Shown here in pieces: positions 1,885 to 42,078 of a stretch of DNA of 64,000 bases. The DNA comes from Cladochytrium replicatum. Its lineage: Eukaryota > Chytridiomycota > Chytridiomycetes > Cladochytriales > Cladochytriaceae. The first letter of the stretch is position 1, and each line of letters begins with the position of its first letter. A program made the position numbers and the translations under genes. The stretch covers positions 1-64,000 of the forward strand of contig JAHLKD010000024.1 of NCBI GenBank assembly GCA_025526935.1, written 5' to 3'. Below the pieces are notes generated by a model that was given only the letters and a program-made list of their open reading frames with translations, did no database searches and was not told where the DNA came from.

Positions 1885-2214
1885 TGACGAAGATGGGCTA
1901 AGGTTCGGCGGGTCCGGGTCGGGTCCGGGTTTCAGTGGCGACCCGCACCAAACCCTTTGGGTGGGTCGTTGTTTGTCTGGGGACCCTGCCGGGTCACTGA
2001 CGGGTACAAAGGGAATACCCGGACCCGAAGTGGTTGAAACCCGTACCCGACCCTGACCCGCCGGGTTTTTGCTGCCCAGGAGAGGATTGATTGAATTTGA
2101 GTTAGACCACGGATATTACATGAACACTTTTGTCTGTGTGGACAGTGTTATTTTAGAAACACTATCGTAAAAAGAAACAAACTCCACTGAGCAATCACAA
2201 GTTGATAGGTGGAA

Positions 2215-3111
2215 CAGCCCAAATCAGCTTCTGTATCTGGTTCATATCGTCAGAGTCCCATCCACCACTGGTTACGTCCTTCGCCAACCCAGTCCTGATG
2301 AACCGATCAATGTCGTCATTGAAGCATGAAATCCTTGGCTAAACCTGTCTTCCAAGGTTTCCAATCCACCTCAGGGAGCGTTATGGACGAAAGATGCCCG
2401 ATGTATTGCCGTCCAGAACCTTAGCCACTCAGAAGGATATGCATCCACTAATGCCCCTGAACATGCGATAGATAGTGGCAGACGTACTTAGCGAATTATT
2501 GTGCCGTATCCCAGTCTTCGAGCAAAATGTGCACCCTAAGAAGAGTAAGGCTGCTCCGAGAACTGCTACTTGAAGTTGATATTCGGCTGACGGGTCGTCT
2601 GATCAACAAATATGGGCCGTAAAAACCTCATTTCGGGAGAGGACTTCGTAGTTTTACATTGACGTACTTGATTGCTGGTGGAAGGAGACGGCAATTTAAG
2701 GTCATAAATCACCTCATTGATCTATGCATCTGGAAGCAGATACCTGGATGACCTCTTTCACCCAAAGGATAGCCGTACGGACGATGCTGCTGCAGGCTAA
2801 GCAATGCAAGGGAACTCGTGGAGAACTGGTTCGATGTACCTTCGGAATTCTACCAATCCCCCTTGATAGCCGACGATCTGCGTATTAGGCCGCCTGTTGA
2901 TGTTGGCCGCCGCAGGTGCTGCAGCTTCTGAATGACCAGCCTGTCGTTTCAGAGCAGCAAGCTCTCCTCCAGGGCGGTCACACGTGATTTCCATTGTGAA
3001 ATCTCCTGGGACAGTTGCCTGCTTCTCCCTTTCCATTGCGGCGGTGATCTCCCTGAATCTTGCTAGCTCTTCGTGCTCGCCGTGCTGAATCAATGCACCC
3101 GCCCTGCCCAA
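2215..3111 (-). pseudogene. hAT accessory ORF, degraded copy
   Basis: This is the copy-1 counterpart of the accessory ORF that is open in hAT copy 2 (24799-25638). It starts at a methionine at 3111, right at the edge of the repeat array, with MGRAGALIQHGEHEELARF upstream of the EREKQAT block shared with copy 2. Copy 2 lacks this N-terminal segment. Short indels break the frame after the coiled-coil part; the remaining DNA down to about 2215 still aligns with copy 2 by eye. No known domain is recognised. Confidence 0.6.
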
Positions 3112-3120
3112 TTCATCACT

Positions 3121-3925
3121 TTCTTAACTCATTGACGGTACTTGAGTGATCTCTATCAAGTACAACTAACATCTCTATCAATGTTACTAGCAATAAAATT
3201 ATGTCCACGGACACTTTCTCAACTCATTGACGGTACTTCAGTGATCTCTATCAAGTACAGCTAACCTCTCTATCAATGTTACTAGCAATAAGATTCTGTC
3301 CACCCGGACACTTTCTTAACTCATTGACGGTACTTGAGTGATCTCTATCAAGTACAAACTAACATCTCTATCAATGTTACTAGCAATAAGATTCTGTCCA
3401 CCCGGACACTTTCTCAACTCATTGACGTACTTCAGTTATCTCTACCCAATACAGCTAACCTCTCTATCAATGTTACTAGCAATACGATTCTGTCCACCCG
3501 GACACTTTCTCAACTCATTGACGGTACTTCAGTAATCTCTATCAGGTACAGCTAACCTCTCTACAAATACTACTAGCAATAGGATTCTGTCCACCCGGAC
3601 ACTTTCTCAACTCATTGACGGTACTTCAGTGATCTCTACCCAATACAACTAACCTCTCTATCAATGTTACTAGCAATAGGATTCTGTCCACCCGGACACT
3701 TTCTCAACTCATTGACGGTACTTCAGTGATCTCTATCAAGTACAGCTAACCTCTCTAATAATGTTACTAGCAATAAGATTCTGTCCACCCGGACACTTTC
3801 TCAACTCATTGACGGTACTTCACTGATACTTCACTGATCTCGATCAAGTACAACCAACCTCTCTACAAATACTACTTGTAATAGGATTCTGTCCAGGCGG
3901 TCGCTTTCTCAACTCCTGGACGGTA
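3121..3925. repeat. hAT copy 1 subterminal repeat array, transposase 3' side
   Basis: Roughly eight tandem units of about 100 bp. Each contains a version of CTGTCCACCCGGACACTTTC (arms TGTCC and GGACA separated by four bases), then TCAACTCATTGACGGTACTTCA, then a less conserved stretch with CTATCAATGTTACTAGCAAT. Inverted-repeat motifs of this kind at hAT ends are typical transposase-binding sites; that role is inference here. Several small open frames within the array are artefacts of the repeat. Confidence 0.85.
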
Positions 3926-3961
3926 CTTCAACAGATGAACAGTCTAAACAACAATTTATAT

Positions 3962-6396
3962 TTAAAAGAGTGGGTTATCATCAGTTGCTTCCAACTCTAA
4001 TACCACATCAAAATCCTCGCCAAAATTATGCACCTTTACAAAATCCTCACTAACATCACTTTTTGAATCTAGGGAATCATTTTTGAACGGTTCTTCAGCA
4101 CTCAATTGATGCAACCAGTCATGACGGCACATCAACGCATTTATTGTTCTTGGAGCAAGGCGGTTGCGAGTTGCAGGTACCAAATCAACCCCGGCTGAAA
4201 ACTTTCGTTCGACTGGAGCGCTTGTTGCTGGTATTCCTAAATAGTCCATTGCCATCTGGCTTAGGGCTGGAAAGTTCACACTTCCAACGGTCTTCCACCA
4301 GTCCATAATATTGATTGGCTTCCCATCAGAATCAATACCGCGGAGTACCTGATCGCCAAGATAGCGATCCAGCTCATCTTTTTCCTCAGGAATCTCTTCT
4401 TGCCAGATGAAAACGGATCTAATGGCTCTCAAGCGTTCAGCGTCCGTTTTTTTCTGTCTATCACCGGAAGCTCCGCTCGAATCGTGTCGACGTTCTGGCG
4501 TGTTTCCAAAAACATCGGCACCACTGTTCTTGATTTTCCGTGACTTATACGATTCCTCCCAGACTTTCCGCACTAGGGTGACCTGATCCCTTCCTACATC
4601 TTTCTCCCAAGCCTTTGAAAATCGATAATATTGATCCTTAAAACGAGGATCGAGTACCGTAGCAACTGCTAAACACGGGCTCTTAGCGATTGAGTAATAT
4701 ATTCTCAGCTTATCTAGTGCATTTCGAAATGCTTTGGTGAAAGTTTCATCTAATTCTGCATCCTCTAGGTCCTCCAGTTGATCGATAAGATCGTTGTAAA
4801 ATGGAATAACAAGCGGAAGTGTTGGATATCTAGACCCTTCGATTGCCTTTGATATAACCTCGAAAACACTCAAACCATCCCGGATCTTCTGTAGGACCTC
4901 CCATTGCTTTGGATTTATTGACCAATCTTTCAAAGAATCTTCAATCCAGCATATTTTGTCCATTGCCTCTCGTAGCTGTAAGGCTCGTTTGACCATATAG
5001 AACGTGCTATTCCAGCGAGTTGTCACATCGATAATTGGTAATAGAGGAACCAGTTTCACAAATCGGCACGAATCAATAAATGAGCTTCGTCGTTTTGGGG
5101 AAGACCGGATTCCTCTGACTAGCCGTCGAAGAAGGTTTATGACATTAACGCCGGAGTTATCGTCATTTGCGACTGTGTCCCCTGCGGGCGCGAATGTATC
5201 GATAAAATCCTTTGCTGCAAGATTGATAATGTGTGCCATACACCGCATGTGTTGAGTTTCTGCAGACCACGCAATATCCCTATCTTCCAAGAGCGTCTCC
5301 AGCTTAGCACTCATGGTAAAGTTGTTTGAACCGTTGTCGGTTGTAATGCACAATAAGCGTTCACCCGATAGCATGCCAAATTCATCCAGACACTTGACAA
5401 GCTGACTAGCCATGGCGACGCCTTCATGCTTTCCAACCATCGGAATCATCTGCAGCAGCAAGTCCTGCGGCTCCCATTCTTTCGTGATGAAGTGGGCAGT
5501 AATTCCAAGAAAAGAAATCTGGTTCTTCGATGTCCAACAGTCAGCTGTTATTGATACTTTTGAAGGCGAACCAACAATCAGACCTTTAATGAGCTCCTTC
5601 TGCCTATCGTAAAGATCCATCTCCTTTTGCTTCACTGCTTTTGCCGTCTTTGGTGTATAGTTTGGCTGAAAAGTCTTCAGCATGCTGACAAAGAACTCGT
5701 TCTCCACAACAGTAAAAGCCTGATTGTCTGCAGCAATCCAGTCCAAAATCGACCGCCACGCTACGTCTGGATTGAACACAAAGTTTTGCTCCTTCTCCTG
5801 CGAGCCGAAATTCAATGTCTGTTGTCCCTTGGGGACGATATCCAACAGTCCAAGCGACCTGGCAATACTTCCATGGTGGTTTTTCAGATGCCAGAGGAAG
5901 TTTTTTGTTGATCCCGTCTTATCGACCTTCTGGCTCCACTTGCATTTCGCAACCAAACATGTTCTCAGACCATTATCAACCTTATAGTAATCCTTCGCTA
6001 TGCCGCCTCGACTACCTCTACAGTCCGACATGCTATCAACATCTGCGTCTGATGAAAGCATTGATGGTTGAACTGATCCAGCTGCAGGCTCCTGTCGCAC
6101 TGAAGAGTCAGCAAAACTAACGTCGGCAGGAAGCTGTGGTGCATGCTGAGAAGCCGGGCCCAACTCGCTGGAGTCATTGGAAGAAGATGTGGAGCTCGGC
6201 TCTCGAGCGCTGTTGTTGCCACCGTGTCCTGATACACGTCTGCGTTGTCCTGCATGATGTTCCCCTCGCTGGACGCCTCTGAAATTTGGGGGGCTGGCAG
6301 ACTTCGCTTCCGTGTGTCAAGCGGATGACTGTCCACTAGTCTTTGGCTTGCGTCGGACGCTGCCTTACGCTTTGGTTTAACAAAGGCGGCGTCCAT
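3962..6396 (-). pseudogene. hAT transposase (BED zinc finger), copy 1, N-terminal frameshift
   Basis: This is a BED-type hAT transposase. The open part (6163 to 3962, 733 residues) has a BED zinc finger (CLVAKCKW ... FLWHLKNHH), the RNase-H-like core with ITADCWTS and ITTDNGSNN carrying the two expected aspartates, a TTRWNSTFYMV block, and the C-terminal hAT dimerisation region ATSAPVERKFSAG ... RNRLAPRTINALMC. The natural start appears to be at 6396 (MDAAFVKPKRKAASDAS, a basic nuclear-localisation-like N-terminus), but one base is missing in an A-run near 6245 relative to copies 2 and 3, so this part is out of frame. It is the best-preserved copy: the two TGA codons found in copies 2 and 3 are CGA here. 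Translation from an internal methionine could still give a nearly complete protein. Confidence 0.9.
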
Positions 6397-6520
6397 TTTT
6401 GCTGTGGTGTGGCTGGAACGTTACCGACTCTAATGTCCAGGTGCACAGAAAGCACAGCTCTCGAGGTCTGTCGTGGTAGAAATTGTTTGTTACAGAACTT
6501 CCGTTGTGACTTCTTGGAAA

Positions 6521-7320
6521 GTGTCCGGGTGGACAGAATCGTATTGCTAGTAACATTGATAGAGGTTAGTTGTACTGGGTAGAGATAACTGAAGTACGTC
6601 AATGAGTTGAGAAAGTGTCCGGGTGGACAGAATCCTATTGCTAGTAACATTGATAGAGAGGTTAGCTGTATTGGGTAGAGATAACTGAAGTACGTCAATG
6701 AGTTGAGAAAGTGTCCGGGTGGACAGAATCGTATTGCTAGTAACATTGATAGAGAGGTTAGCTGTATTGGGTAGAGATAACTGAAGTACGTCAATGAGTT
6801 GAGAAAGTGTCCGGGTGGACAGAATCTTATTGCTAGTAACATTGATAGAGATGTTAGTTTGTACTTGATAGAGATCACTCAAGTACCGTCAATGAGTTAA
6901 GAAAGTGTCCGGGTGGACAGAATCTTATTGCTAGTAACATTGATAGAGAGGTTAGCTGTACTTGATAGAGATCACTGAAGTACCGTCAATGAGTTGAGAA
7001 AGTGTCCGGGTGGACATAATTTTATTGCTAGTAACATTGATAGAGATGTTAGTTGTACTTGATAGAGATCACTCAAGTACCGTCAATGAGTTAAGAAAGT
7101 GTCCGGGTGGACAGAATCTTATTGCTAGTAACTATGATAGAGAGGTTAGTTGTATTGGTGTAGAGAGATAACTGAAGTACGTCAATGAGACTTGAGAAAA
7201 GTTGTCCGGGGTGGACAGAAAATAACATGCCTCGATGTCCGTTGGTGATGGCAAAATTGTTTTGATACATACAAAAACTTATATTGCGTCTTCTTGGAAA
7301 GTGTCCGCGTGACAGAAAAG
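6521..7320. repeat. hAT copy 1 subterminal repeat array, transposase 5' side
   Basis: Seven units spaced 94-98 bp begin with GTGTCCGGGTGGACAGAAT at 6521, 6615, 6711, 6807, 6905, 7002 and 7099, with degenerate versions up to about 7310. The array is the inverted counterpart of 3121-3925 and lies between the transposase start and the GGGTC-rich terminus, so it also forms the promoter-side region of the transposase. Confidence 0.85.
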
Positions 7321-7525
7321 AACAATAGCTTCGTTGTTAGATTCTCTATCACATCGGGTTTTACTCGGGTCTGACTTTTGACCCGAGTAAGGGGTTTTCC
7401 TACTGGACCCGATACCCGACCCGGATCCGACCCGAAATTTTCATGAAAACCCGGCACTCGGGTCGGGTACATTTAGTCAATGGACCCGACCCGACCCGAA
7501 AGACCCTAAAACCCGCCGATCCTTA

Positions 7526-8355
7526 AGATTGGGCTGAGCGAGGCTGACGCGCAATCCCGCGGGTCACTGTCCAGCACAGATTTCAGTGAGCAATCATGGG
7601 AGCTGACCAACGGACATACCAGGAAAATAGCAGGAATCAGTAACTGAACTGAGGATATAGTGGCATATCTCTATGTGGACAACTTCCCTGACCCGCAGCC
7701 TCCTCTCTGCTACAAAGGAAGAGTAGAGGCTCCGGCGAAGAAAGTCAGGGTTTGATTCGTCAGTTGGAAGCTTCCTGGGTGGGAGAAGTGCGCACAGGAT
7801 AGCAATTGGCGGTTGAGCCGAATACAGATAAAGGAAGCAAATGTTGCCGACGCAACAGAAACTGAGTTGGCGGAGACCACGCACCACATCATCGCCCAAG
7901 AGGGCCCTCAGCATGGTCCGCACAAAGCCGAGCCACTGTCTCATGATGTCCTTGATGTACACAGTGGTCAATCATCCACACGGGCCTGAAGATCAGCAGG
8001 TGGGGAGACCAGCAGCGGAGAGGTCGGAGGATAGAATACGACAGGCCGAGGGCCACGAAGGCTGACATTCGAAGTGGGGTCACGACCAGCAAGGGCAGTC
8101 CTGACAGCTTCTGTACGAGATTCAGCACTCAGTGTGGGGAGACTCTCAAGTACACGGGCACGGGCATTGGCAGCAGCAGCGGCATAAGTGCGTGGACCAC
8201 GATGTCCACGTGGGGCAGGTCGACTAGACGGGGGGCGAGGGCCAGGAGCACCAGAGTTCCCAAGATCGTCCTGAATTGAAGGAATACCATGCAGTTGTCT
8301 AGGGGGAAGGCACACAGCATCATCATGGCGGGACACAGGGGCAACCGGAGGTGAA
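7526..8355 (-). pseudogene. Degenerate LINE ORF1, partner of 1-1884
   Basis: The minus-strand reading from about 8336 aligns with ORF1 of the intact LINE. RTYAAAAANARARV corresponds to the SYAQVASASRP region. RTALAGRDPTSNVSLRGPRP followed by YPPTSPLLVSPP corresponds to RSVVAGVDPLSRRSLRPPRL followed by YPAESPILINPP. VRGLRQLSFCCVGNICFLYL corresponds to SRDIRHISFIGRNTAEFKI. Frame breaks occur near 7970. Its direction and position show that it belongs to the LINE whose ORF2 is at 1-1884; hAT copy 1 inserted between them. Confidence 0.75.
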
Positions 8356-8715: not shown

Positions 8716-8786
8716 CCCCTATAGGATTCGAACCGCGGAGTTTAGCTTCGAAAAGTCGCATTCGTACCGACTGAGCCACTATGAGG
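8716..8786 (-). other. tRNA-like sequence (pseudo-tRNA or tRNA-derived element)
   Basis: The minus strand carries TGGCTCAGTCGGT, a good A box, and GGTTCGAATCC, a perfect B box, at tRNA spacing. CCTCATAG near the 5' end can pair with CTATAGGGG near the 3' end with one bulged base. The T stem and anticodon stem do not pair well, so a working tRNA is unlikely. It lies directly upstream of the intact LINE. A tRNA pseudogene and a SINE-like relic are both possible. Confidence 0.4.
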
Positions 8787-8792
8787 TCAAGT

Positions 8793-8867
8793 TACTCTCT
8801 CACCCTCTCACTCTCACTCTCTCACTCTCTCACTCTCTCACTCTCTCACTCTCTCTCTCTCTCTCTC
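8793..8867. repeat. CT-rich microsatellite at the LINE 5' end
   Basis: Runs of CTCTCA and CTCT units form a simple repeat immediately before the ORF1 start codon. It is either the 5' UTR of the LINE or the target sequence. Confidence 0.8.
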
Positions 8868-8873
8868 AAATCA

Positions 8874-10037
8874 ATGCCGCCTCCCAGCGCTCCGCCTGCG
8901 CAGCCGCCTGATGCGCCGCATGCCGCGCCGCCCGCCGCGCCGCCCGCCGCACCCGCCTCAAAAATTTTCATCGCTTCTGGCCGTGCTCGCTCCCGTGCTC
9001 CCTCTGTGTCCCACCCTCGCGCCCCTCAGGAAAACATTCCTGACTCTCAGCCCAGCAACTTTGATGGAGAAAATTTTCTGTGGGCAGATGAAGTGAATTC
9101 TCCTCGCGAATCACGTGACTCACGATCACGTGACCAAGCGTCATCCACTTCAGAACCGCCTCGAATTAGAGGAAGATCCCCCGCAAGTGTCGTAGATGTT
9201 CACATGAATGATACAGTCAAAATGTCACTTACCCTTGCTGATGCTGATCCCAAAGGGAAACGTCGAGCATCAAAATCACCCCCGACTCGCCGACCTGCCT
9301 CTCGTGCCAGGGTCGAGAAGAATGCCTCTGCAGCTGATCATGCTACCTCTCCCTTGCCTACTCCTCGTGACCGATTCTTGGATGCTCTGCATATGCTGGC
9401 CCCTGCTCAAACTTCTGGATCTCATCCATTAGTGATGTCTGCTTTCACTCGTGCAATGCAATTTCTCCCAGTATTGGAACCAGAGACTGAGGCTGCCTTC
9501 TTTGCTGCATTGACTATTGCTGTAGTTCCGTTGGTTGAAACTATCAGCTGCCCTCCTGCTGCTGTCTCTGCCGTGCCTTCCTATGCTCAAGTTGCGAGTG
9601 CTAGCCGACCGCCACCTGCCCCTGCTACTCGCAATCCTGGGCCTTTCAGCACTGCAAAATTTGCCTCTCGTGCATCAAATGCTATTGTTCGTATTGAAGC
9701 TGCCGAAGCAGATGCTCAACCCGCCCTTTATCGCTCAGTGGTTGCTGGAGTGGACCCCCTATCTCGCAGATCACTACGGCCACCCAGATTGGTGATTGAT
9801 TACCCGGCTGAGTCACCAATTTTGATCAATCCTCCTCAGCCTGTTCGTGATCGTGCTGCTGGTTTTGCTACTGTGAGGTTTAAGGAAATTAGTCGTCAGC
9901 CACTTAATCAGCTCCGCACTCTGATTAATCGAATTTCTGGAAACCCTCAATTTTCCCGTGACATTCGCCATATTAGTTTTATTGGGCGTAACACTGCTGA
10001 GTTTAAGATTTGCTCACCTCTTGCGAATTACTCATGA
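8874..10037 (+). CDS. LINE ORF1 protein (387 residues, likely truncated by a frameshift)
   Basis: This is the ORF1 product of the LINE, probably the RNA-binding/chaperone partner; no RRM or zinc knuckle is recognised. The start is taken at the ATG at 8874 (MPPPSAPPAQPP) because the upstream open frame is only microsatellite. The protein is proline/alanine-rich at the N-terminus, followed by a more globular part from about residue 230 (SYAQVASA, RSVVAGVDPLSRR, RDIRHISFIGRNTAEFKI). It stops at 10037, but the next frame continues as LRITHDPAVFHYLRSNLP to a TAA at 10141-10143. In the older LINE copy the matching residues stay in one frame, so a one-base shift near 10000-10030 probably truncates this copy. 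Confidence 0.8.
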   Translation: MPPPSAPPAQPPDAPHAAPPAAPPAAPASKIFIASGRARSRAPSVSHPRAPQENIPDSQPSNFDGENFLWADEVNSPRESRDSRSRDQASSTSEPPRIRGRSPASVVDVHMNDTVKMSLTLADADPKGKRRASKSPPTRRPASRARVEKNASAADHATSPLPTPRDRFLDALHMLAPAQTSGSHPLVMSAFTRAMQFLPVLEPETEAAFFAALTIAVVPLVETISCPPAAVSAVPSYAQVASASRPPPAPATRNPGPFSTAKFASRASNAIVRIEAAEADAQPALYRSVVAGVDPLSRRSLRPPRLVIDYPAESPILINPPQPVRDRAAGFATVRFKEISRQPLNQLRTLINRISGNPQFSRDIRHISFIGRNTAEFKICSPLANYS

Positions 10038-10142
10038 TCCTGCAGTTTTTCATTATCTTCGTTCTAATCTTCCTGCTGCAGACTTTGAAGCTACTGTTTC
10101 TTTAGCCCGTTCTTCGCGTTCTGAACCTACATCTCGCAATTA

Positions 10143-13100
10143 ATGTGGACTTTTCGTTCTGGAACCTTCAACTGTAGAGGTTTGCCTCTGGATTTTTCAG
10201 ATTTACTTGCTTGGCTTGTTACTCATCAGCTTGATTTTTTAGTTTTAACAGAAACTCATCAGTTAACTTTAGACAGTGTTTCTTCTGAGTATTTGTTGTT
10301 TGATTCTCGTCCTCCACCAGACGCTCCTTTGGCATCTGGTGTTGCTCTTCTTATTAACCCACATCGTTGCAGTACTTATCAATTTAGGTTGATTGCATCA
10401 GTTCCTTCTGGGTTTGGTTTGTGGTTTAGGTTTCGTCAGGTCGTGATTGGTGGATTTTATTTTCCCCCACGTTGGACTGCGGAAGACTGTTTGGGTGCAT
10501 TATCTGATTTTCCTCAATTTGTTTCGAATTCGGATACACCAGTAGTTTTGATGGGTGACTTCAATTTTAGAACTCAGAGCACTGGTGATCATGTTACTAA
10601 TGCCCGTGCCAGAGCACTTCTTCCTTTTTTTACAGCCCACTCACTTTCATTGGTTGTCCCAGCTTCTTCTTCAGCTCGTCGCCCAACTTTTCGTTCCCAC
10701 TTAGGGAGTTCAATTATTGATTTGTTTTTTGCTTCTACTTATGTGACAGCTTCCTCTTATTTAGTGCATGATCAACCCCAGTCTATGGCTCCCCATCCTT
10801 CAGACCATTTTGCAGTGACCTGTTCATTTTCTTTAGCTGGCCCAGATCCTCAGGCCACTGTGCCTCCTCCTCTACCTTCTTGGAATCTCCCATTGTTAAA
10901 GGATGAAGTTATTCGTAAGTCGCACAGAGAAACTGCTAAGATTCTGCTTCCTCTTACATCAGAGGCGCTAACAGCAGCATTGGAACCACTTCAGGTCCCT
11001 GTGGGGACTTCTCTTTCTCGTGCAGTGGCCCAGGGAGCAATTGATTCTGCATTTCAAATTATAGTTGATTTTGTTGAGGCAACAGCAGTTCTGACATTGG
11101 GACCACCAACACCTCGTCGTAGAGCACCAGCGACCACTCCTTTGCCCCCTGAGATTGCTTTGTTGCGTAGTAAGGCTCGTTCAGCATTCCGTGACTATTA
11201 TTCCATCTTTCACCACAATTCTTCTGACCCTCTTCTTCCTTTTCTAAGAACTCGCCAACGTGATAGTCACAAAGCATTCAAATCAGCTCTGAGATCACAC
11301 AGGCGTAAGACAAAAGCAAATTTTTTTGATGACCCTAGTTCTTCATCAGTGCCTTCTCTTCTGAAACATGTGTCTCATGCTCGGCGCTGCGCTAACTTTC
11401 GTACTTCAGCTAATGGTTTAGATTTTGATCCTCAGTCTTTAGCCAAATATTCTGATCATTTTGCTAGTGTCTACAATGCTCAAGCTGCTGACCCAGTTTC
11501 ACCTTCAATTGTTCTGTGTGATTTTCAGCTGCCATTGGATGTTGAAGCTTTTGTTCTAGCTATTAGGGACTGCCCTTTGGAGTCTGCCCCGGGTCATGAT
11601 CGTCTGCCTGCAGAACTTTATCGCCCAATTTCAGCTATTCTTGCTCCATTGTTCTTGCAACTTTCTCAGTCCATTTTTCGCAGTAGTCTTACACCCACTT
11701 CATGGAATCTTGGGCTTTTGCACCCAGTTTGGAAGCAACGTGGTACACTTGGTGATATTACTAATTATCGCCCCATTACTCTTTCGTGTGTTGCCCGAAA
11801 AAATTTTGAGCGAGCTTTGTTGCCACATCTTTATTCTGCTATCACGTCTCAACGCCCACTTGATGCTGCCCAAGCGGGATTTCAGTCACACCGCTCGGGA
11901 ATGGAATGTGTTTTTGGTCTTCAGGCATGTATCTCCCGTGCGTCTAATGCCAAGGTTCCTTGGGTTGCTGGTTTTTTAGATATTCAAGCAGCTTATGACA
12001 CCACAAATCGTGCAATTCTTTGGGCTGAGCTTCTTTCTAGGGGAGTACCGTTGCCATTTGTTTTTGTTTTGAAGTCTCTGTTTGATTTTTGTTCTTCCAG
12101 AGTGGTTGTTGCAAATTGTTTTTCAGATGCTTTTGATTTGTTTAGAGGTTTGTTTCAAGGTTCTGTTCTCAGTCCACTTCTCTATATCACTTTTCTTGAT
12201 CCTCTACCTGGGCTCCTCCGACCATTTGCCCCACCTATAACACTCTTTCATCCTGCCAAACCACGATATAATTCTTTTTTATTTGCAGATGATTTGGCCT
12301 TGTTTGCAATTACTTTGGATGCTATGCAGGTTCTTCTCTCTGTTTGTGACCAGTTTGCCCAAGCTCGTGGTTTTTCTTTTGCTCCTTTGAAGTCTGTGAT
12401 TCTCACAAAAATTCCTATTCCTGCTCATTCGCCTTTGCTTCTTCATGGTCAACCTCTGCCTGTCAAGCCTTCATTTCGTTATCTGGGTTGCTTTTTTGGA
12501 GATACTGGATTTGATGTTTCACTGACTATTTCCCATCGACTTGCCAAAGCGCGCGCAGCTTCTTTTGCTTTGCTTTCTTTTTCAAGGATGTTTGGTTCTC
12601 ATTCTCTGGTTGTGGTTCGTCATTTGTTTTTGTCTTTTATTCGACCTACGCTTGAATTTGGTTTATATTTTATTCTTCCCTCTGTTGCTGTTTGCAAACC
12701 AGTTCGGACTTTTATTCACCAATGTTTGTGTCGATTTCTTCGCCTTTCATTTTCCACTTCAATTGCTGGGGTTTTACTGTTTTTTAAGTTTCCTGACCTT
12801 CAGTTTCGGCTTCAATATCTGCAGTTTCAGATGTTTCAACGTTGGCTGGATGATGATGCCCCTGATATGGTTCACTCTATGTTGTCATTCTTTCTTCACC
12901 AGGGAAAGCACTTTCGTTGTTCTCCTGTCCCTTTCAACAATCACTTCCTCTTCCCGGCTGCAAATGTTGTAGTTCCCAAACCTTCTGATGTTATCGCAAA
13001 TCACTTTCACCAAGTAGCCTCATCTGCCTATGGTTCTATAGCTGCTAGCTTTGCTCCCCTTGCATCTGCACACCCTCATGCGCTAGCAATTGCTCCTCCA

Positions 13101-13454
13101 TGCTTCCCTATTTCGTCAATCTTGAGGCTTCTGCAGTATCGCCTTGGACGTTTGTTTTATCACCCCCGCAAGCAGTGTTGTCACTGCCGCACTGCAACTC
13201 TCTCTAGATCTCATGTTTCAGAATGTTTGCGTCTTGACCTATTGTTGCCTCCTGTTCCTGTTCCTGTTTTACAACTTCCGCTTGACGTTGCAATTGATGG
13301 CCTTCGTCCACTTCGCATTGTCAACCCAGTGAATCTTGCACCGTGGTATCTAGTTTTTCGTTGTCTCCATAAGATTTGGCTTCACTGTATGGGTCTGCCA
13401 TTAGAAGTTTCTCCTCCAGACTCCCTCTTTGGCCCTGCATTTGTGGATCTTTAA
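10143..13454 (+). CDS. LINE ORF2: endonuclease and reverse transcriptase
   Basis: A 1103-residue polyprotein that nicks target DNA and copies the element's RNA. The endonuclease/exonuclease/phosphatase domain fills about residues 1-235: GTFNCRG, LTETHQ with the catalytic glutamate, MGDFNFR, SSIIDLFFA and SDHFAVT. The reverse transcriptase follows at about 480-800: PGHDRLPAELY, GDITNYRPITLSCV, AGFLDIQAAYD, LFQGSVLSPLLY and the catalytic FADD in FLFADDLALFA. Near the C-terminus QCCHCRTATLSRSHVSEC fits a CX2CX8HX3C zinc knuckle. No frame break is seen and all catalytic motifs are present. The ATG overlaps the stop of the extended ORF1 frame as TAATG. Confidence 0.95.
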   Translation: MWTFRSGTFNCRGLPLDFSDLLAWLVTHQLDFLVLTETHQLTLDSVSSEYLLFDSRPPPDAPLASGVALLINPHRCSTYQFRLIASVPSGFGLWFRFRQVVIGGFYFPPRWTAEDCLGALSDFPQFVSNSDTPVVLMGDFNFRTQSTGDHVTNARARALLPFFTAHSLSLVVPASSSARRPTFRSHLGSSIIDLFFASTYVTASSYLVHDQPQSMAPHPSDHFAVTCSFSLAGPDPQATVPPPLPSWNLPLLKDEVIRKSHRETAKILLPLTSEALTAALEPLQVPVGTSLSRAVAQGAIDSAFQIIVDFVEATAVLTLGPPTPRRRAPATTPLPPEIALLRSKARSAFRDYYSIFHHNSSDPLLPFLRTRQRDSHKAFKSALRSHRRKTKANFFDDPSSSSVPSLLKHVSHARRCANFRTSANGLDFDPQSLAKYSDHFASVYNAQAADPVSPSIVLCDFQLPLDVEAFVLAIRDCPLESAPGHDRLPAELYRPISAILAPLFLQLSQSIFRSSLTPTSWNLGLLHPVWKQRGTLGDITNYRPITLSCVARKNFERALLPHLYSAITSQRPLDAAQAGFQSHRSGMECVFGLQACISRASNAKVPWVAGFLDIQAAYDTTNRAILWAELLSRGVPLPFVFVLKSLFDFCSSRVVVANCFSDAFDLFRGLFQGSVLSPLLYITFLDPLPGLLRPFAPPITLFHPAKPRYNSFLFADDLALFAITLDAMQVLLSVCDQFAQARGFSFAPLKSVILTKIPIPAHSPLLLHGQPLPVKPSFRYLGCFFGDTGFDVSLTISHRLAKARAASFALLSFSRMFGSHSLVVVRHLFLSFIRPTLEFGLYFILPSVAVCKPVRTFIHQCLCRFLRLSFSTSIAGVLLFFKFPDLQFRLQYLQFQMFQRWLDDDAPDMVHSMLSFFLHQGKHFRCSPVPFNNHFLFPAANVVVPKPSDVIANHFHQVASSAYGSIAASFAPLASAHPHALAIAPPCFPISSILRLLQYRLGRLFYHPRKQCCHCRTATLSRSHVSECLRLDLLLPPVPVPVLQLPLDVAIDGLRPLRIVNPVNLAPWYLVFRCLHKIWLHCMGLPLEVSPPDSLFGPAFVDL

Positions 13455-13698
13455 CGTTTTCTTTTCTCATTATTTATTACTCACCTGTTTTTTTGGCACC
13501 TTAGCAGTATCTGACGGGTAGCCACAGGTTTGAGTTTACATTCTCTGTTTTGCTTTGTTGCTTTTCCTTATGCTGCGCGCGCTTCCCTATGTGCTGGTCC
13601 ATGACCATCTTGTAAGGCACTTTGGGTGTTGTTTTTTGTTATGCATTGTATGTGCAAAATAAATAATAATATTGTTAAAAAAAAAAAAAAAAAAAGGA

Positions 13699-13772
13699 GC
13701 GTCCTTAGCTCAGCTGGGAGTAGCGTAAGACTGAAGATCTTAAGGTCCCCGGTTCAATCCCGGGAGGGCGCA
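13699..13772 (+). tRNA. tRNA-Phe (GAA)
   Basis: A 74-nt cloverleaf without intron. The acceptor stem pairs GCGTCCT with AGGGCGC (one G-T). The anticodon stem TAAGA/TCTTA closes the loop CTGAAGA, anticodon GAA. The T arm has CCCGG-TTCAATC-CCGGG. The A box (TAGCTCAGCTGGG) and B box (GGTTCAATCCC) are intact, and a T5 run at 13780-13784 can terminate Pol III. The D stem has three pairs and one mismatch. A LINE poly(A) tail ends 3 bp upstream. Confidence 0.93.
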
Positions 13773-14298: not shown

Positions 14299-14301
<3 letters not shown>

Positions 14302-14343: not shown

Positions 14344-14344
<1 letters not shown>

Positions 14345-14347
<3 letters not shown>

Positions 14348-25638: not shown

Positions 25639-25667
25639 TGCAGCGGTGATCTCCCTGAATCTTGCTC

Positions 25668-26870: not shown

Positions 26871-26898
26871 TCAACAGAGGAACAGTCTAAACAACAAT

Positions 26899-29331
26899 TT
26901 AAAATAGTGGGTTATCATCAGTTGCTTCCAACCCTAATACCACATCAAAATCCTCGCCAAAATTATGCACCTTTACAAAATCCTCACTAACATCACTTTT
27001 TGAATCTAGGGAATCATTTTTGAACGGTTCTTCAGCACTCAATTGATGGAACCAGTCATGACGGCACATCAACGCATTTATTGTTCTTGGAGCAAGGCGG
27101 TTGCGAGTTGCAGGTACCAAATCAACCCTGGCTGAAAACTTTCGTTCGACTGGAGCACTTGTTGCTGGTATTCCTAAATAGTCCATTGCCATCTGGCTTA
27201 GGGCTGGAAAGTTCACACTTCCAACAGTCTTCCACCAGTCCATAATATTGATTGGCTTCCCATCAGAATCAATACCGCGTACTACCTGATCGCCAAGATA
27301 GTGATCCAGCTCATCTTTTTCCTCAGGAATCTCTTCTTGCCAGATGAAAACGGATCTAATGGCTCTCAAGCATTCAGCGTCCGTTTTTTTCTGTCTATCA
27401 CCGGAAGCTCCGCTCGAATCGTGTCGACGTTCTGGTGTGTTTCCAAAAACATCGGCACCACTGTTCTTGATTTTCCGTGACTTATACAATTCCTCCCAGA
27501 CTTTCCGCACTAGGGTGACCTGATCCCTTCCTACATCTTTCTCCCAAGCCCTTGAAAATCGATAATATTGATCATTAAAACGAGGATCGAGTACCGTAGC
27601 AACTGCTAAACACGGGCTCTTAGCGATTGAGTAATATATTCTCAGCTTATCTAGTGCATTTCGAAATGCTTTGGTGAAAGTTTCATCCAATTCTGCATCC
27701 TCTAGGTCTTCCAGTTGATCGATAAGATCGTTGTAAAATGGAATAACAAGCAGAAGTGTTGGATATCTAGACCCCTAGATTGCCTTTGATATAACCTCGA
27801 AAACACTCAAACCATCCCGGATCTTCTGTAGGACCTCCCATTGCTTTGGATTTATTGACCAATCTTTCAAAGAATCTTCAATCCAGCATATTTTGTCCAT
27901 CGCCTCTCGTAGCTGTAAGGCTCGTTTGACCATATAGAACGTGCTATTCCAGCGAGTTGTCACATCGATAATTGGCAATAGAGGAACCAGTTTCACAAAT
28001 CGGCACAAATCAATAAATGAGCTTCGTCGTTTTGGGGAAGACCAGATTCCTCTGACTAGCCGTCGAAGAAGGTTTATGACATTAACGCCGGAGTTATCGT
28101 CATTTGCGACTGTGTCCCCTGCAGGCGCGAATGTATCGATAAAATCCTTTGCTGCAAGATTGATAATGTGTGCCATACACCGCATGTGTTGAGTTTCTGC
28201 AGACCACGCAATATCCCTATCTTCCAAGAGCGTCTCCAGCTTAGCACTCATGGTAAAGTTGTTTGAACCGTTGTCGGTTGTAATGCACAATAAGCGTTCA
28301 CCCGATAGCATGCCAAATTCATCCAGACACTTGACAAGCTGACTAGCCATGGCGACGCCTTCATGCTTTCCAACCATCGGAATCATCTGCAGCAGCAAGT
28401 CCTGCGGCTCCCATTCTTTCGTGATGAAGTGGGCAGTAATTCCAAGAAAAGAAATCTGGTTCTTCGATGTCCAACAGTCAGCTGTTATTGATACTTTTGA
28501 AGGCGAACCAACAATCAGACCTTTAACCAGCTCCTTCTGCCTATCGTAAAGATCCATCTCCTTTTGCTTCACTGCTTTTGCCGTCTTTGGTGTATAGTTT
28601 GGCTGAAAAGTCTTCAGCATGCTGACAAACTCGTTCTCCACAACAGTAAAAGCCTGATTGTCTGCAGCAATCCAGTCCAAAATCGACCGCCACGCTACGT
28701 CTGGATTGAACACAAAGTTTTGCTCCTTCTCCTGCGAGCCAAAATTCAATGTCTGTTGTCCCTTGGGGACGATGTCCAACAGTCCAAGCGACCTGGCAAT
28801 ACTTCCATGGTGGTTTTTCAGATGCCGGAGGAAGTTTTTTGTTGATCCCGTCTTATCTACCTTCTGGCTCCACTTGCATTTCGCAACCAAACATGTTCTC
28901 AGACCATTATCAACCTTATAGTAATCCTTCGCTATGCCGCCTCGACTACCTCTACAGTCCGACATGCTATCAACATCTGCATCTGATGAAAGCATTGATG
29001 GTTGAACTGATCCAGCTGCAGGCTCCTGTCACACTGAAGAGTCAGCAAAACTAACGTCGGCAGGAAGCTCTGGTGCATGCTGAGAAGCCAGGCCCAACTC
29101 TCTGGAGTCATTGGAAGAAGATGTGGAGCTTGGCTCTCAAGCGCTGTTGTTGCCACCGTGTCCTGATACACGTCTGCGTTTGTCCTGCATGCAGTTCCCC
29201 TCGCTGGACGCCTCTGAAATTTTGGGGGCTGGCAGACTTTGCTTCTGTGTGTCAAGCGGATGACTGTCCACCAGTCTTTGGCTTGCGTCGGACGCTGCCT
29301 TACGCTTTGGTTTAACAAAGGCGGCGTCCAT
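26899..29331 (-). pseudogene. hAT transposase, copy 2, three nonsense codons
   Basis: The same protein as in copy 1, with BED finger, RNase-H-like core and C-terminal hAT dimerisation block all readable. The N-terminal start at 29331 is in frame with the main ORF, but TGA codons interrupt at 29139-29137 and in the SSV-TGA-QEP segment near 29033; both are CGA in copy 1. A TAG at 27777-27775 replaces a glutamate codon after EVISKAI. The remaining frames (28995-27775 and 27690-26899) are otherwise near identical to copies 1 and 3. Confidence 0.9.
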
Positions 29332-29871
29332 TTTTGCTGTGGTGTGGCTGGAACGTTACCGACTCTAAGTGTCCAGGTGCACAGAAAGCACAGCTCTCGA
29401 GGTCTGTCGTGGTAGAAATTGTTTGTTACAGAACTTCCGTTGTGACTTCTTGGAAAGTGTCCGGGTGGACAGAATCGTATTGCTAGTAACATTGATAGAG
29501 GTTAGTTGTATTGGGTAGAGATAACTGAAGTACCGTCAATGAATTGAGAAAGTGTCCAGGTGGACAGAAAATACATGCCTCGATGTCTGTTGTGATGCAA
29601 AATTGTTTGATACATACAAAACTTATATTGCGTCTTCTTGGAAAGTGTCCGAGTGGACAGAAAGAACAATAGCTTCGTTTTAGCTTCTCTATCACATCGG
29701 GTTTTATTCGGGTCTGATTTTTGACCCGAGAAGGGTTTTCCTACTGGACCCGATACCCGACCCGGATCGGACCCGAAAATTTTCCATGAAAACCCGGCAC
29801 TCAGGTCGGTTGGTCAATGGACCCGGACCCGACCCGAAAGACCCTAAAACCCGCCGATCCTTATTTTGCAG

Positions 29872-29921
29872 TGACTTGTTCATTTTCTTTAGCTGGCCCA
29901 GATCCTCAGGCCACTGTGCCT
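29872..29921 (+). mobile_element. LINE fragment, right part
   Basis: This continues the LINE ORF2 match from 24505 (LINE 10816-10865). It ends where the hAT deletion derivative begins. Confidence 0.85.
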
Positions 29922-30426
29922 GGGTTGTGTTCGGGTCCATTGACAAAATGTACCTGACCTGATAGGCGGGTTTTCAGGAAAGCTTTTTCAGGTCGGATCT
30001 GTGTCGGGTATCAGGTCCAGAAGCAAAACCCTTGTCGGGTAGAGCTTTAGACCCGTGTAAAACCCAATCTCATAAGAAAAGATAGAAGGAAGCAATTTGT
30101 ATTTTCTGTCCACCCGGACACTTTCCAAGATGACAATCGACGTTTTGTTACAAATTTTTTCGATCCACAACAGACCTCGAGAGCTGCACTTTCTGTCCAC
30201 GCGGACACTTTCCAAGAAGACGCAATTGCGATTTTGTTTTACCTTCTTCTAGCTCAAGTTAAAACGCAAAACAGACAGGGTCAGGGTCGGGTACAGGTTT
30301 CGATAACAGCATGTCCAGGTTTGGCGCTGTTACCCACAGTGAGCCCTGGACATACACGACCCAACATTAGGGTTTTTTTTGGGTTGACTTTCTAACCCAG
30401 ACCCAACCCAGACCTGCCGAACCTTA
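29922..30426. mobile_element. Non-autonomous hAT deletion derivative (MITE-like)
   Basis: About 500 bp. The left side is a diverged version of the GGGTC-rich transposase-5' end (TCGGGTCCATTGAC ... CGGGTATCAGGTCC), with the outermost bases lost. The middle has two TGTCC-N4-GGACA palindromes (about 30108 and 30196). The right side ends CTGCCGAACCTTA, the opposite family terminus. No coding sequence is left. It abuts the LINE fragment; no clean target duplication remains. Confidence 0.75.
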
Positions 30427-38082: not shown

Positions 38083-38620
38083 TAAGGATCGGCGGGTTTT
38101 AGGGTCTTTCGGGTCGGGTCCGGGTCCATTGACCAAATGTACCCGACCCGAGTGCTGGGTTTTCATGGAAAATTTTCGGGTCGGATCCGGGTCGGGTATC
38201 GGGTCCAGTAGGAAAACCCTTCTCGGGTCAAAAGTCAGACCCGAGTAAAACCCGATGTGATAGAGCAGCTAAAACGAAGCTATTGTTCTTTCTGTCCACT
38301 CGGACACTTTCCAAGAAGACGCAATATAAGTTTTGTATGTATCAAACAATTTTGCATCACAACAGACATCGAGGCATGTATTTTCTGTCCACCTGGACAC
38401 TTTCTCAATTCATTGACGGTACTTCAGTTATCTCTACCCAATACAACTAACCTCTATCAATGTTACTAGCAATACGATTCTGTCCACCCGGACACTTTCC
38501 AAGAAGTCACAACGGAAGTTCTGTAACAAACAATTTCTACCACGACAGACCTCGAGAGCTGTGCTTTCTGTGCACCTGGACACTTAGAGTCGGTAACGTT
38601 CCAGCCACACCACAGCAAAA

Positions 38621-41051
38621 ATGGACGCCGCCTTTGTTAAACCAAAGCGTAAGGCAGCGTCCGACGCAAGCCAAAGACTGGTGGACAGTCATCCGCTTGA
38701 CACACAGAAGCAAAGTCTGCCAGCCCCCCAAATTTCAGAGGCGTCCAGCGAGGGGAACTGCATGCAGGACAAACGCAGACGTGTATCAGGACACGGTGGC
38801 AACAACAGCGCTTGAGAGCCAAGCTCCACATCTTCTTCCAATGACTCCAGCGAGTTGGGCCTGGCTTCTCAGCATGCACCAGAGCTTCCTGCCGACGTTA
38901 GTTTTGCTGACTCTTCAGTGTGACAGGAGCCTGCAGCTGGATCAGTTCAACCATCAATGCTTTCATCAGATGCAGATGTTGATAGCATGTCGGACTGTAG
39001 AGGTAGTCGAGGCGGCATAGCGAAGGATTACTATAAGGTTGATAATGGTCTGAGAACATGTTTGGTTGCGAAATGCAAGTGGAGCCAGAAGGTAGATAAG
39101 ACGGGATCAACAAAAAACTTCCTCCGGCATCTGAAAAACCACCATGGAAGTATTGCCAGGTCGCTTGGACTGTTGGACATCGTCCCCAAGGGACAACAGA
39201 CATTGAATTTTGGCTCGCAGGAGAAGGAGCAAAACTTTGTGTTCAATCCAGACGTAGCGTGGCGGTCGATTTTGGACTGGATTGCTGCAGACAATCAGGC
39301 TTTTACTGTTGTGGAGAACGAGTTTGTCAGCATGCTGAAGACTTTTCAGCCAAACTATACACCAAAGACGGCAAAAGCAGTGAAGCAAAAGGAGATGGAT
39401 CTTTACGATAGGCAGAAGGAGCTGGTTAAAGGTCTGATTGTTGGTTCGCCTTCAAAAGTATCAATAACAGCTGACTGTTGGACATCGAAGAACCAGATTT
39501 CTTTTCTTGGAATTACTGCCCACTTCATCACGAAAGAATGGGAGCCGCAGGACTTGCTGCTGCAGATGATTCCGATGGTTGGAAAGCATGAAGGCGTCGC
39601 CATGGCTAGTCAGCTTGTCAAGTGTCTGGATGAATTTGGCATGCTATCGGGTGAACGCTTATTGTGCATTACAACCGACAACGGTTCAAACAACTTTACC
39701 ATGAGTGCTAAGCTGGAGACGCTCTTGGAAGATAGGGATATTGCGTGGTCTGCAGAAACTCAACACATGCGGTGTATGGCACACATTATCAATCTTGCAG
39801 CAAAGGATTTTATCGATACATTCGCGCCTGCAGGGGACACAGTCGCAAATGACGATAACTCCGGCGTTAATGTCATAAACCTTCTTCGACGGCTAGTCAG
39901 AGGAATCCGGTCTTCCCCAAAACGACGAAGCTCATTTATTGATTTGTGCCGATTTGTGAAACTGGTTCCTCTATTGCCAATTATCGATGTGACAACTCGC
40001 TGGAATAGCACGTTCTATATGGTCAAACGAGCCTTACAGCTACGAGAGGCGATGGACAAAATATACTGGATTGAAGATTCTTTGAAAGATTGGTCAATAA
40101 ATCCAAAGCAATGGGAGGTCCTACAGAAGATCCGGGATGGTTTGAGTGTTTTCGAGGTTATATCAAAGGCAATCGAGGGGTCTAGATATCCAACACTTCC
40201 GCTTGTTATTCCATTTTACAACGATCTTATCGATCAACTGGAAGACCTAGAGGATGCAGAATTGGATGAAACTTTCACCAAAGCATTTCGAAATGCACTA
40301 GATAAGCTGAGAATATGTTACTCAATCGCTAAGAGCCCGTGTTTAGCAGTTGCTACGGTACTATCCTCGTTTTAATGATCAATATTATCGATTTTCAAAG
40401 GCTTGGGAGAAAGATGTAGGAAGGGATCAGGTCACCCTAGTGCGGAAAGTCTGGGAGGAATCGTATAAGTCACGGAAAATCAAGAACAGTGGTGCCGATG
40501 TTTTTGGAAACACACCAGAACGTCGACACGATTCGAGCGGAGCTTCCGGTGATAGACAGAAAAAAACGGACGCTGAATGCTTGAGAGCCATTAGATCCGT
40601 TTTCATCTGGCAAGAAGAGATTCCTGAGGAAAAAGATGAGCTGGATCACTATCTTGGCGATCAGGTAGTACGCGGTATTGATTCTGATGGGAAGCCAATC
40701 AATATTATGGACTGGTGGAAGACTGTTGGAAGTGTGAACTTTCCAGCCCTAAGCCAGATGGCAATGGACTATTTAGGAATACCAGCAACAAGCGCTCCAG
40801 TCGAACGAAAGTTTTCAGCCGGGGTTGATTTGGTACCTGCAACTCGCAACCGCCTTGCTCCAAGAACAATAAATGCGTTGATGTGCCGTCATGACTGGTT
40901 GCATCAATTGAGTGCTGAAGAACCGTTCAAAAATGATTCCCTAGATTCAAAAAGTGATGTTAGTGAGGATTTTGTAAAGGTGCATAATTTTGGCGAGGAT
41001 TTTGATGTGGTATTAGAGTTGGAAGCAACTGATGATAACCCACTCTTTTAA
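38621..41051 (+). pseudogene. hAT transposase, copy 3, two nonsense codons and a frameshift
   Basis: The start at 38621 is in frame with the main ORF. TGA codons interrupt at 38813-38815 and 38921-38923, the same two as in copy 2. The long open part from 38957 runs through the BED finger and RNase-H-like core to 40375, where two bases are missing in the LDPRF codons (GTACTATCC here, GTACTCGATCC in copies 1 and 2). The C-terminal part, including the hAT dimerisation block ATSAPVERKFSAG, continues to 41051 in the shifted frame. Confidence 0.9.
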
Positions 41052-41082
41052 ATATAAATTGTTGTTTAGACTGTTCATCTGT

Positions 41083-42078
41083 TGAAGTACCGTCCAGGAG
41101 TTGAGAAAGCGACCACCTGGACAGAATCCTATTGCGAGTAGTATTTGTAGAGAGGTTGGTTGTACTTGATCGAGATCAGTGAAGTATCAGTGAAGTACCG
41201 TCAATGAGTTGAGAAAGTGTCCGGGTGGACAGAATTGTATTGCTAGTAACATTGATAGAGAGGTTAGCTGTACTTGATAGAGATCACTGAAGTACCGTCA
41301 ATGAGTTGAGAAAGTGTCCGGGTGGACAGAATTGTATTGCTAGTAACATTGATAGAGAGGTTAGCTGTACTTGATAGAGATCACTGAAGTACCGTCAATG
41401 AGTTGAGAAAGTGTCCGGGTGGACAGAATCTTATTGCTAGTAACATTGATAGAGAGGTTAGCTGTACCTGATAGAAATTACTGAAGTACCATCAATGAGT
41501 TGAGAAAGTGTCCGGGTGGACAGAATTTTATTGCTAGTAACATTGATAGAGATGTTAGTTGTACTTGATAGAGATCACTCAAGTACCGTCAATGAGTTAA
41601 GAAAGCGTCTGGGTGGACAGAATCTTATTGCTAGTAACATTGATAGAGATGTTAGTTGTACTTGATAGAGATCACTCAAGTACCGTCAATGAGTTAAGAA
41701 AGTGTCCGGGTGGACAGAATCTTATTGCTAGTAACATTGATAGAGAGGTTAGTTGTATTGGGTAGAGATAACTGAAGTACGTCAATGAGTTGAGAAAGTG
41801 TCCGGGTGGGACAGAATTGTATTGCTAGTAACATTGATAGAGAGGTTAGCTGTACTTGATAGAGATCACTGAAGTACCGTCAATGAGTTGAGAAAGTGTC
41901 CGGGTGGAGAGAATCTTATTGCTAGTAACATTGATAGAGAGGTTAGTTGTACTTGATAGAGATCACTCAAGTACCGTCAATGAGTTAAGAAAGTGTCCGG
42001 GTGGACAGAATCTTATTGCTAGTAACATTGATAGAGAGGTTAGTTGTACTTGATAGAGATCACTGAAGTACCGTCAAT
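41083..42078. repeat. hAT copy 3 subterminal repeat array
   Basis: About ten units of about 97-100 bp built on GTGTCCGGGTGGACAGAAT plus TATTGCTAGTAACATTGATA and GTACCGTCAATGAGTTGAGA. One palindrome carries an extra G (TGTCCGGGTGGGACAG, about 41799). The array is cut off after GTCAAT at 42078. Confidence 0.85.

Follow-up and report, generated by a model that had tools for sequence, protein, structure and literature searches.

What is one to make of a transposon that seems to carry, besides its transposase, a second protein gene and long arrays of palindromes, and do these extra parts really belong to it? The question is raised by 64,000 nucleotides at the start of contig JAHLKD010000024.1 of the chytrid Cladochytrium replicatum (the window, by which we mean that whole stretch at its full length). 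The short answer is that this is a hAT cut-and-paste family, multi-copy and recently amplified, with one part order common to the mapped copies and with the second gene, ORF2, as a resident; a transposase, a second protein gene and long palindrome arrays together are an unusual arrangement for this class of transposon. The relevant parts of the window are as follows.

1899–7525, minus strand (that of the transposase): hAT family copy 1 (5627 bp), with its T-end on the left and its A-end on the right, delimited by TIRs and flanks
1899–2160, no strand: GGGTC-rich T-end of copy 1 (inner limit placed by eye; density of the motif taken from L061)
2198–3118, minus: copy 1 ORF2 remnant, the 3' part, with indels (97.1% across an alignment of 929 columns with 18 gap characters)
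3117–3930, no strand: array 3' of the transposase gene in copy 1, a tandem repeat of period 97
3965–6396, minus: copy 1 hAT transposase, one gap character against the reference, open for 784 codons (3965–6316)
6517–7220, no strand: array 5' of the transposase gene in copy 1, in the opposite orientation to its partner array at 3117–3930
7320–7525, no strand: GGGTC-rich A-end of copy 1 (inner limit placed by eye; terminal TIR with A at position 6)
24506–29863, minus: copy 2, 5358 bp, with a perfect 8-bp duplication, delimited by TIRs and flanks
24802–25666, minus: copy 2 ORF2, the C-terminal part (codons about 272–560; 288 of 560 codons open)
25681–26852, no strand: copy 2 array, 108-bp units with 45-bp sub-repeats
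26902–29331, minus: transposase of copy 2, interrupted by stops and gaps
29458–29659, no strand: A-side palindromes of copy 2, limited to three units
29920–30426, plus: diverged miniature relative with two palindromes, lacking the A-end TIR
38083–42078, plus: copy 3, the A-end half only, lacking T-end and ORF2 and ending within an array
38293–38582, no strand: copy 3 A-side palindromes
38621–41048, plus: copy 3 transposase, broken
41085–42078, no strand: array 3' of the copy 3 transposase, with roughly nine 97-bp units

The initial annotation had proposed inverted repeats with GGGTC-rich outer ends, and both are borne out. Exact matches to the 15-bp repeat, TAAGGNTCGGCGGGT, stand at 1899 (+), 7511 (-), 24506 (+), 29849 (-) and 38083 (+), and a site with one mismatch at 30412 (-) brings the window to six at two mismatches or fewer (0.15 expected, shuffle maximum 2); across the 50.5 Mb genome there are 460 exact copies and none of the reversed-pattern control, the short terminal inverted repeats of a hAT element thus being present. 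GGGTC occurs nine times in 205 bp and 11 times in 303 bp at the two ends of our reference copy, L061 (shuffled means 1.5 and 1.4). Among 30 facing pairs of neighbouring TIRs, drawn from the first 100 TIRs listed, position 6 reads A/T in 24, A/C in one and A/A or T/T in five. The 8-bp target duplications claimed for copies 1 and 2 fared unevenly, since that of copy 2 is perfect (TTTTGCAG at 24498–24505 and 29864–29871) but the flanks of copy 1 at 1891–1898 and 7526–7533, AGATGGGC and AGATTGGG, differ by two mismatches. Twelve elements were read at both ends, and seven of these have perfect 8-bp duplications, one has a duplication with two mismatches and four have none; once two miniature relatives are set aside, six of 10 are perfect.

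The hAT dimerisation domain (PF05699) is found in a full-length transposase at E 6.8e-20 (71.1 bits against a cut-off of 21.4) and recurs in all three large window copies; of the architecture they were said to share, copy 3 has neither ORF2 nor T-end. The best match among PDB sequences is Hermes (E 6.1e-12); of the blocks that would hold the RNase H-like D-D-E catalytic residues, the C-terminal ER-FS block is well covered by the alignment and the first-D block weakly. The second D (TTDN) is read by eye only, as is a C-x4-C ... H-x4-H pattern at residues 147–175, a candidate for an N-terminal BED zinc finger. The full-length copies fetched are 99.5–99.9% identical to the reference, a figure that rests on the best-scoring copies, and singletons in young copies have an N/S ratio of 1.00, that is, no selection signal. 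For both the transposase and ORF2, single-protein searches of viral contigs, which reach close relatives only, returned no homologues.

How, then, are the parts arranged? In L061, which is 6,723 bp long and flanked by a perfect 8-bp target duplication, a GGGTC-rich A-end is followed by nine palindrome units, the hAT transposase (811 codons), an inverted array, a further three units in forward orientation, ORF2 (560 codons) and a GGGTC-rich T-end. The transposase does have an array on either side, as annotated, though the two run in opposite orientations, and since ORF2 separates the second of them from the T-end, that one is not subterminal in the strict sense.

Does ORF2 belong inside the element? 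It had been placed downstream of the transposase, and genome-wide this is where it lies, although the window itself holds only 3' parts of it (copies 1 and 2). A T-end TIR follows ORF2 by about 300 bp in every one of the 30 copies fetched, which were ranked by ORF2 similarity (23 exact, seven with up to four edits), and ORF2 is found at four of five further T-ends taken from the TIR list, one of these with an inverted segment, the remaining T-end retaining only about 17 bp of it. Just over half of the exact transposase starts (52 of 95; controls 1 and 0) are followed on their own strand by an exact ORF2 start. In L067, T-end and ORF2 occur together though the copy is only 92% like the reference over both, which argues that ORF2 is not one recent capture. 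The alternative, chance insertions of independent elements in one ancestral copy, finds no support genome-wide, where ORF2 and the arrays both travel with the family: of the 56 exact palindromes on contig C1, 54 fall no more than 2.5 kb from a TIR or ORF start of the family, a zone that makes up at most 6.3% of the contig.

The arrays themselves agree well with the palindromic units of 97–107 bp first described, their main periods in the window being 97 and 108 bp and TGTCC-N4-GGACA sites at one mismatch or fewer numbering 47 against 2.1 expected (shuffle maximum 6). They run to about 0.8–1.4 kb in the whole copies mapped, and the sites are asymmetric, many on the A side and a single degenerate one at the T-end. 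The element at 29920–30426, annotated as a deletion derivative of the family, proved to be something else: it is 78% like the A-side of the hAT family, against 85% and 81% for the respective ends of a separate miniature family, a closer match that rules the derivative out and, on sequence grounds, assigns it to a different, older and diverged miniature family. Since that family has the palindromes and lacks both the 97-bp arrays and the genes, the palindromes probably came first.

Our explanation as a whole, to which we give a probability of roughly 0.6, is that of an ordered hAT family with a resident ORF2, palindromes bound by protein and ORF2 as an accessory factor. The palindromes would be putative sites for an element-encoded protein that binds them cooperatively and so finds its own ends, and the binder would most likely be the transposase, acting through an N-terminal zinc finger. 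The asymmetry of the sites fits Hermes, whose BED domains, in the portion of the account that we drew on, contact quasi-palindromic subterminal repeats at one end alone, the left (PMC10368747). The same account gives AAGT as the sequence bound by these domains (PMC10368747); AAGT occurs 22 times in 885 bp of array (shuffled mean 12.8, maximum 22), an enrichment that, in repeated sequence, is no more than suggestive. Three observations count against the binding reading: Pfam makes no BED finger call in the transposase, the palindromes of one miniature element (L063) are degenerate, and the arms of the palindrome, in type II units, show scarcely more conservation than the adjoining anchor sequence, a comparison made uninformative by the anchoring of the units on neighbouring spacer. 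Two more touch the explanation as a whole, namely the 43 of 95 transposase starts with no exact ORF2 start in register, and L004, an element with a perfect target duplication and no A-side palindrome. We rejected L004 as proof that the arrays are dispensable, because its junction is unique in the genome and the deletion may postdate the insertion.

With less confidence, we suggest that ORF2 may act on the same arrays, helping transposition or keeping the element expressed, a role that by analogy could resemble that of TnpA in CACTA elements or VANC in VANDAL elements. The fuller version, a two-component hAT lineage in which ORF2 would be an array-binding accessory or anti-silencing protein, coevolving with the 97-bp arrays, independent in origin from TnpA and VANC and convergent with them, is one we hold only tentatively. 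Might the arrays instead be chiefly regulatory, a promoter or anti-silencing device upstream of both genes and bound by ORF2, much as VANC binds tandem motif arrays in VANDAL? Forward units do lie immediately 5' of both the transposase and ORF2, but the palindrome is also retained in gene-less miniature elements, a sign that it serves transposition in cis, and we regard a mainly regulatory function as rather unlikely.

A cargo reading, in which ORF2 was captured from the host and rides along as a passenger without contributing to transposition, while the arrays bind transposase only, strikes us as less likely still. The protein has no convincing match among Pfam (none above cut-off), NCBIfam or PDB sequences, only weak coiled-coil-like ones, as a captured gene might; perfect target duplications also flank copies whose ORF2 is truncated at its 5' end (on C23, and window copy 2), but these could have been helped in trans or truncated after insertion. 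ORF2 is likewise open in two derivatives that lack a transposase and have perfect duplications, L004 (2213 bp) and L062 (2560 bp). The L062 junction falls inside array units and is seen at one further site, and recombination between direct array copies could thus delete the transposase to leave ORF2 alone; an element of nearly the same size, at C9:610651-613208, has no match to this junction within three mismatches. Against cargo, ORF2 is present within copies from 92% (L067) to 99.8% alike, and so has been resident through much of the family's visible life, and its N/S ratio between window copies 1 and 2 (0.58, P 0.095) equals that of the three window transposases (0.58, P 0.044). The frame is often intact, with no internal stop listed over the C-terminal 288 codons in 112 of 135 scored matches, and among 22 whole copies translated, 13 have no stop, five have one and four are frame-shifted. 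In L068, an older copy from the TIR list, 64 substitutions and one gap have created no stops, with 37 nonsynonymous changes against 46.8 expected (P 0.007), and over four older TIR-list copies pooled N/S is 0.74 of neutral (P 0.04). These comparisons show weak purifying selection; a singleton ratio of 0.56 was set aside, the loci having been chosen by protein similarity and so biased against amino-acid changes. On the other side of an accessory role are this weak selection (P 0.04), the lack of any recognisable DNA-binding domain in domain and sequence searches, and a poor predicted structure (mean pLDDT 40.5), a model too weak to interpret. The N-terminus of ORF2 is basic, and one long helix is predicted.

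The arrays gain and lose length in whole 97-bp units, and the spacing between transposase and ORF2 changes in 97-bp steps in 45 of 52 pairs. Such whole-unit changes, an A-side number that runs from 3 to 9 among mapped copies, the 45-bp sub-repeats of copy 2 and type II arms not clearly above their surroundings might all suggest a functionless selfish satellite born of slippage and unequal exchange, with inversion and length variation as by-products, but we think this improbable, given that one palindrome is common to two different spacer types and to gene-less miniatures with no 97-bp unit, and that two or three forward units are kept just 5' of ORF2 in 19 of 22 loci (those of the 30 where the ORF2 start was located).

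Where does such a family stand among known systems? TnpA binding is known from CACTA elements, VANDAL elements belong to the MULE transposase superfamily, and Foldback and Galileo carry long inverted arrays of tandem repeats; unlike these last two, the present family has a hAT transposase and arrays internal to distinct TIR ends. In the extracts of the literature that we drew on, hAT elements usually encode a single transposase, and CACTA elements combine a second ORF with complex subterminal repeat arrays (PMC4423477). With Hermes and Ac the family has in common, on the published portions consulted, the dimerisation domain, 8-bp duplications, palindromic subterminal repeats and unequal ends, but here there is a second conserved gene and the palindromes are multiplied into 97-bp arrays. 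Its second ORF and subterminal arrays recall CACTA (En/Spm), but with a hAT transposase, TAAGG ends and 8-bp rather than 3-bp duplications. An extra gene alongside tandem motif arrays recalls VANDAL, whose VANC product is described in part of one report as binding tandem motif arrays in noncoding regions, which expand by repeat formation (PMC5735166), but here the transposase is hAT and ORF2 is without a Pfam counterpart above cut-off. Among the matches listed, the titles and abstract openings of open-access papers describe no two-gene hAT element. A young, high-copy hAT family with a resident second gene and expanding arrays that resemble binding sites is a setting in which to study the contribution of a second protein, and it raises the question of whether transposons commonly gain stronger recognition or escape silencing through arrays that grow at palindromes, a question that natural array-length variants, together with ORF2-only and ORF2-less derivatives, make directly testable.

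The window (C24:1-64000) belongs to a genome of 50,508,147 bp in 198 contigs, and the three large copies that the initial annotation had recognised in it, with their terminal inverted repeats (TIRs) and arrays of TGTCC-N4-GGACA palindrome units, are genuine and lie far above chance expectation. By transposase, target duplication and TIR, this family is a hAT element. Domain matches elsewhere in the window mark one ORF each of the GATA_AreA, Sel1-repeat and LINE-like kinds; GATA_AreA being a fungal domain, the host is probably a fungus. A tRNA gene (13699-13772) lies 245 bp beyond the LINE-like element.

Other features of the window
8775-13772, + strand: LINE-like element whose second ORF encodes an endonuclease domain and a reverse transcriptase domain; the span includes the tRNA gene 3' of the element
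46749-48371, - strand: GATA_AreA-domain open frame, 541 codons, by domain match; principal pointer to a fungal host

Our reference full-length copy, L061 (C10:714317-721239), contains an element of 6,723 bp with ACAAGTAC at either flank, and its A-end (the two ends, A and T, are named by TIR position 6) opens with TAAGGATCGG.

Anatomy of L061
First ~205 bp: A-end, nine GGGTC motifs, both strands counted
206 to ~1070: forward palindrome array, nine units
1093-3549: transposase open frame, 811 codons
3606 to 4296: inverted array, eight units, one degenerate
From 4361: three forward units ahead of the second gene, ORF2
4651-6420: ORF2 open frame, 560 codons
Last part, 303 bp: T-end, eleven GGGTC motifs

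Eight copies were read from loci, namely L061 and seven assembled from overlapping loci; those on C31 and C165 were excluded because a search at up to three mismatches did not find one of their ends, and the remaining six were mapped alongside the three window copies. The order of parts is identical in all six, each with nine units in the A-side array, while unit number varies in the other two arrays, from 8 to 14 in the inverted one and from none to three in the forward one ahead of ORF2. ORF2 itself is fully open on C10 and C14, frameshifted through a single-base gap on C6 and C104, and truncated at its 5' end on C8 and C23. Among 30 pairs of facing TIRs, drawn from the first 100 of 460, position 6 reads A/T in 24, A/C in one and A/A or T/T in five.

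Does the second gene truly live in the element? Four tests bear on this. In the first, a T-end TIR stands at the canonical distance in all 30 fetched ORF2 loci (23 exact, 7 with up to 4 edits), although these loci were ranked by ORF2 similarity and so test solely for ORF2 occurring without a T-end. Conversely, four of five previously unfetched T-ends taken from the TIR list carry ORF2 (L067 with an inverted segment), and the fifth, L070, has about 17 bp of ORF2 and then array sequence. Among the best-scoring matches listed, a same-strand ORF2 lies downstream of the transposase 3' end in 52 of 68 cases, against controls of 0 (opposite strand) and 2 (upstream), and a later pattern search, judged by eye, found the ORF2 start in place at 7 of the 16 unpaired ends. 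The last test used exact transposase starts: among the first 100 matches in contig order for each gene, an exact ORF2 start follows in 52 of 95 (controls 1 and 0), leaving 43 of 95 transposase and 48 of 100 ORF2 starts unpaired; all three window copies are among these, as are two copies whose ORF2 is truncated at the 5' end. At up to two mismatches, the genome holds 274 ORF2 and 251 transposase starts. The second gene is a resident of the hAT family, and the palindrome arrays are associated with the family.

The arrays have their own regularity. The distance from transposase end to ORF2 end changes in whole 97-bp steps, with 45 of 52 distances no more than 6 bp off a grid anchored at the commonest one (mean vector length 0.87, versus at most 0.44 across 10,000 uniform draws). 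The genome contains 2,690 exact TGTCCACCCGGACA sites, against 0 for the reversed control; of the 56 on C1, 54 lie near family features. In the A-side array, the first and last units have the type I spacer and those between are type II units of 97 bp; common to both types are the palindrome and the CTTTC that follows it. A type I-like spacer also occurs in a diverged, gene-less miniature family (L063, L064; ~530-630 bp), whose ends are 76-78% like those of the hAT family and whose palindromes are degenerate in L063; the target duplication is perfect in L064 and absent from L063. Of 610 candidate A-end places of the miniature family in the genome, 40 were scored, among them the query itself; the other scored places are 79-86% alike. 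Window 29920-30426, with type I-like palindrome units, belongs to this older miniature family and not, as had been thought, to the deletion derivatives of the large copies. We infer that a few palindromes were the ancestral cis-acting state, with the type II arrays a later expansion at them.

Direct array copies flanking the transposase appear to offer a route to ORF2-only elements, of which two were read. L062 (2,560 bp, perfect duplication) lacks the transposase, its A-side units being fused to those ahead of an open ORF2 of 559 codons, and its junction has one further occurrence in the genome. L004 (2,213 bp, perfect duplication) joins 80 bp of A-end to a complete ORF2, without transposase or A-side palindrome, at a junction found once only in the genome.

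As to age, fetched full-length transposases are 99.5-99.9% identical to that of L061 (best-scoring copies only), and of the 12 elements for which both ends were read, 7 are flanked by perfect 8-bp duplications (6 of 10 leaving out two miniature relatives), with C8 and C23 possibly not independent. Older copies exist too: the transposases of window copies 2 and 3 are 98% alike, and over T-end and ORF2 L068 is 96% and L067 92% alike, while ORF2 pieces as low as 88%, their ends not seen, adjoin some newer copies. The family was therefore recently amplified and carried ORF2 through a longer past. C8:8080-13990 and C23:465000-470910, both 5911 bp, share the same truncated ORF2 and one flank, with a perfect duplication in C23 and none in C8; a segmental duplication, or an exchange from one copy to another, would be a likely cause. 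At C104:163470-170386 (L017, L032), a copy apparently sits inside the ORF2 leader of another; its target duplication, ACCGGGCC, is found in the leader of L061's ORF2 and its flank matches ORF2 at 91%. The left flank of C14:469475-476777 is array-like. At least one insertion of the family into one of its own copies has thus taken place. Internal inversions in adjoining parts of ORF2, of ~310 bp in L065 (C12:88245-91130) and ~190 bp in L067 (C2:202047-204097), are perhaps traces of faulty gap repair.

What might ORF2 do? Its last 288 codons are free of internal stops in 112 of 135 scored matches, and of 22 whole copies translated, 13 are stop-free, 5 have one stop and 4 are frame-shifted. Singletons in 26 copies aligned over 90% of length, from loci chosen by protein similarity, a choice that disfavours amino-acid changes, number 63 nonsynonymous and 44 synonymous (77.1 nonsynonymous expected). 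The distinct variants within L066-L069 number 102 and 53 (112.1 nonsynonymous expected; ratio 0.74, P 0.042), or a ratio of 0.72 (P 0.028) with the window copies added; the window copies by themselves give 0.58 for ORF2 (P 0.095) and 0.58 for the transposase (P 0.044). The best single case is L068, with 64 substitutions, no stop created and one gap (P 0.007). The signal of selection on ORF2 is real, though modest. Searches of Pfam and NCBIfam returned nothing above cut-off, and PDB sequences nothing below E 0.6; most of the weak matches resemble coiled coils. AlphaFold gave a model of low quality, with a mean pLDDT of 40.5, in which the better part, residues ~150-310, is helical; the N-terminus, MPRTTKKRALKQSR, is basic by eye. 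Where an ORF2 start was found, 19 of 22 loci have the same units ahead of it as precede the transposase.

Because ORF2 resides in the element, shows modest constraint and has the same units ahead of it as the transposase, and because PMC4423477 and PMC5735166 describe a second gene together with repeat arrays in other transposon superfamilies, we regard it with moderate confidence as a putative accessory factor that would act on the arrays. The organisation resembles that of CACTA and VANDAL elements, although the family is a member of neither; hAT elements usually encode one transposase only, according to PMC4423477, and among the open-access literature matches listed, no two-gene hAT was found. 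In Hermes, as PMC10368747 reports, a quasi-palindromic pair of subterminal repeats at the left end is bound via several BED domains and no BED domain is bound at the right, an asymmetry that agrees with the A-side clustering of palindromes here. Overall, this hAT family is real and was amplified recently; a second gene is resident in it, and palindrome arrays are associated with it.
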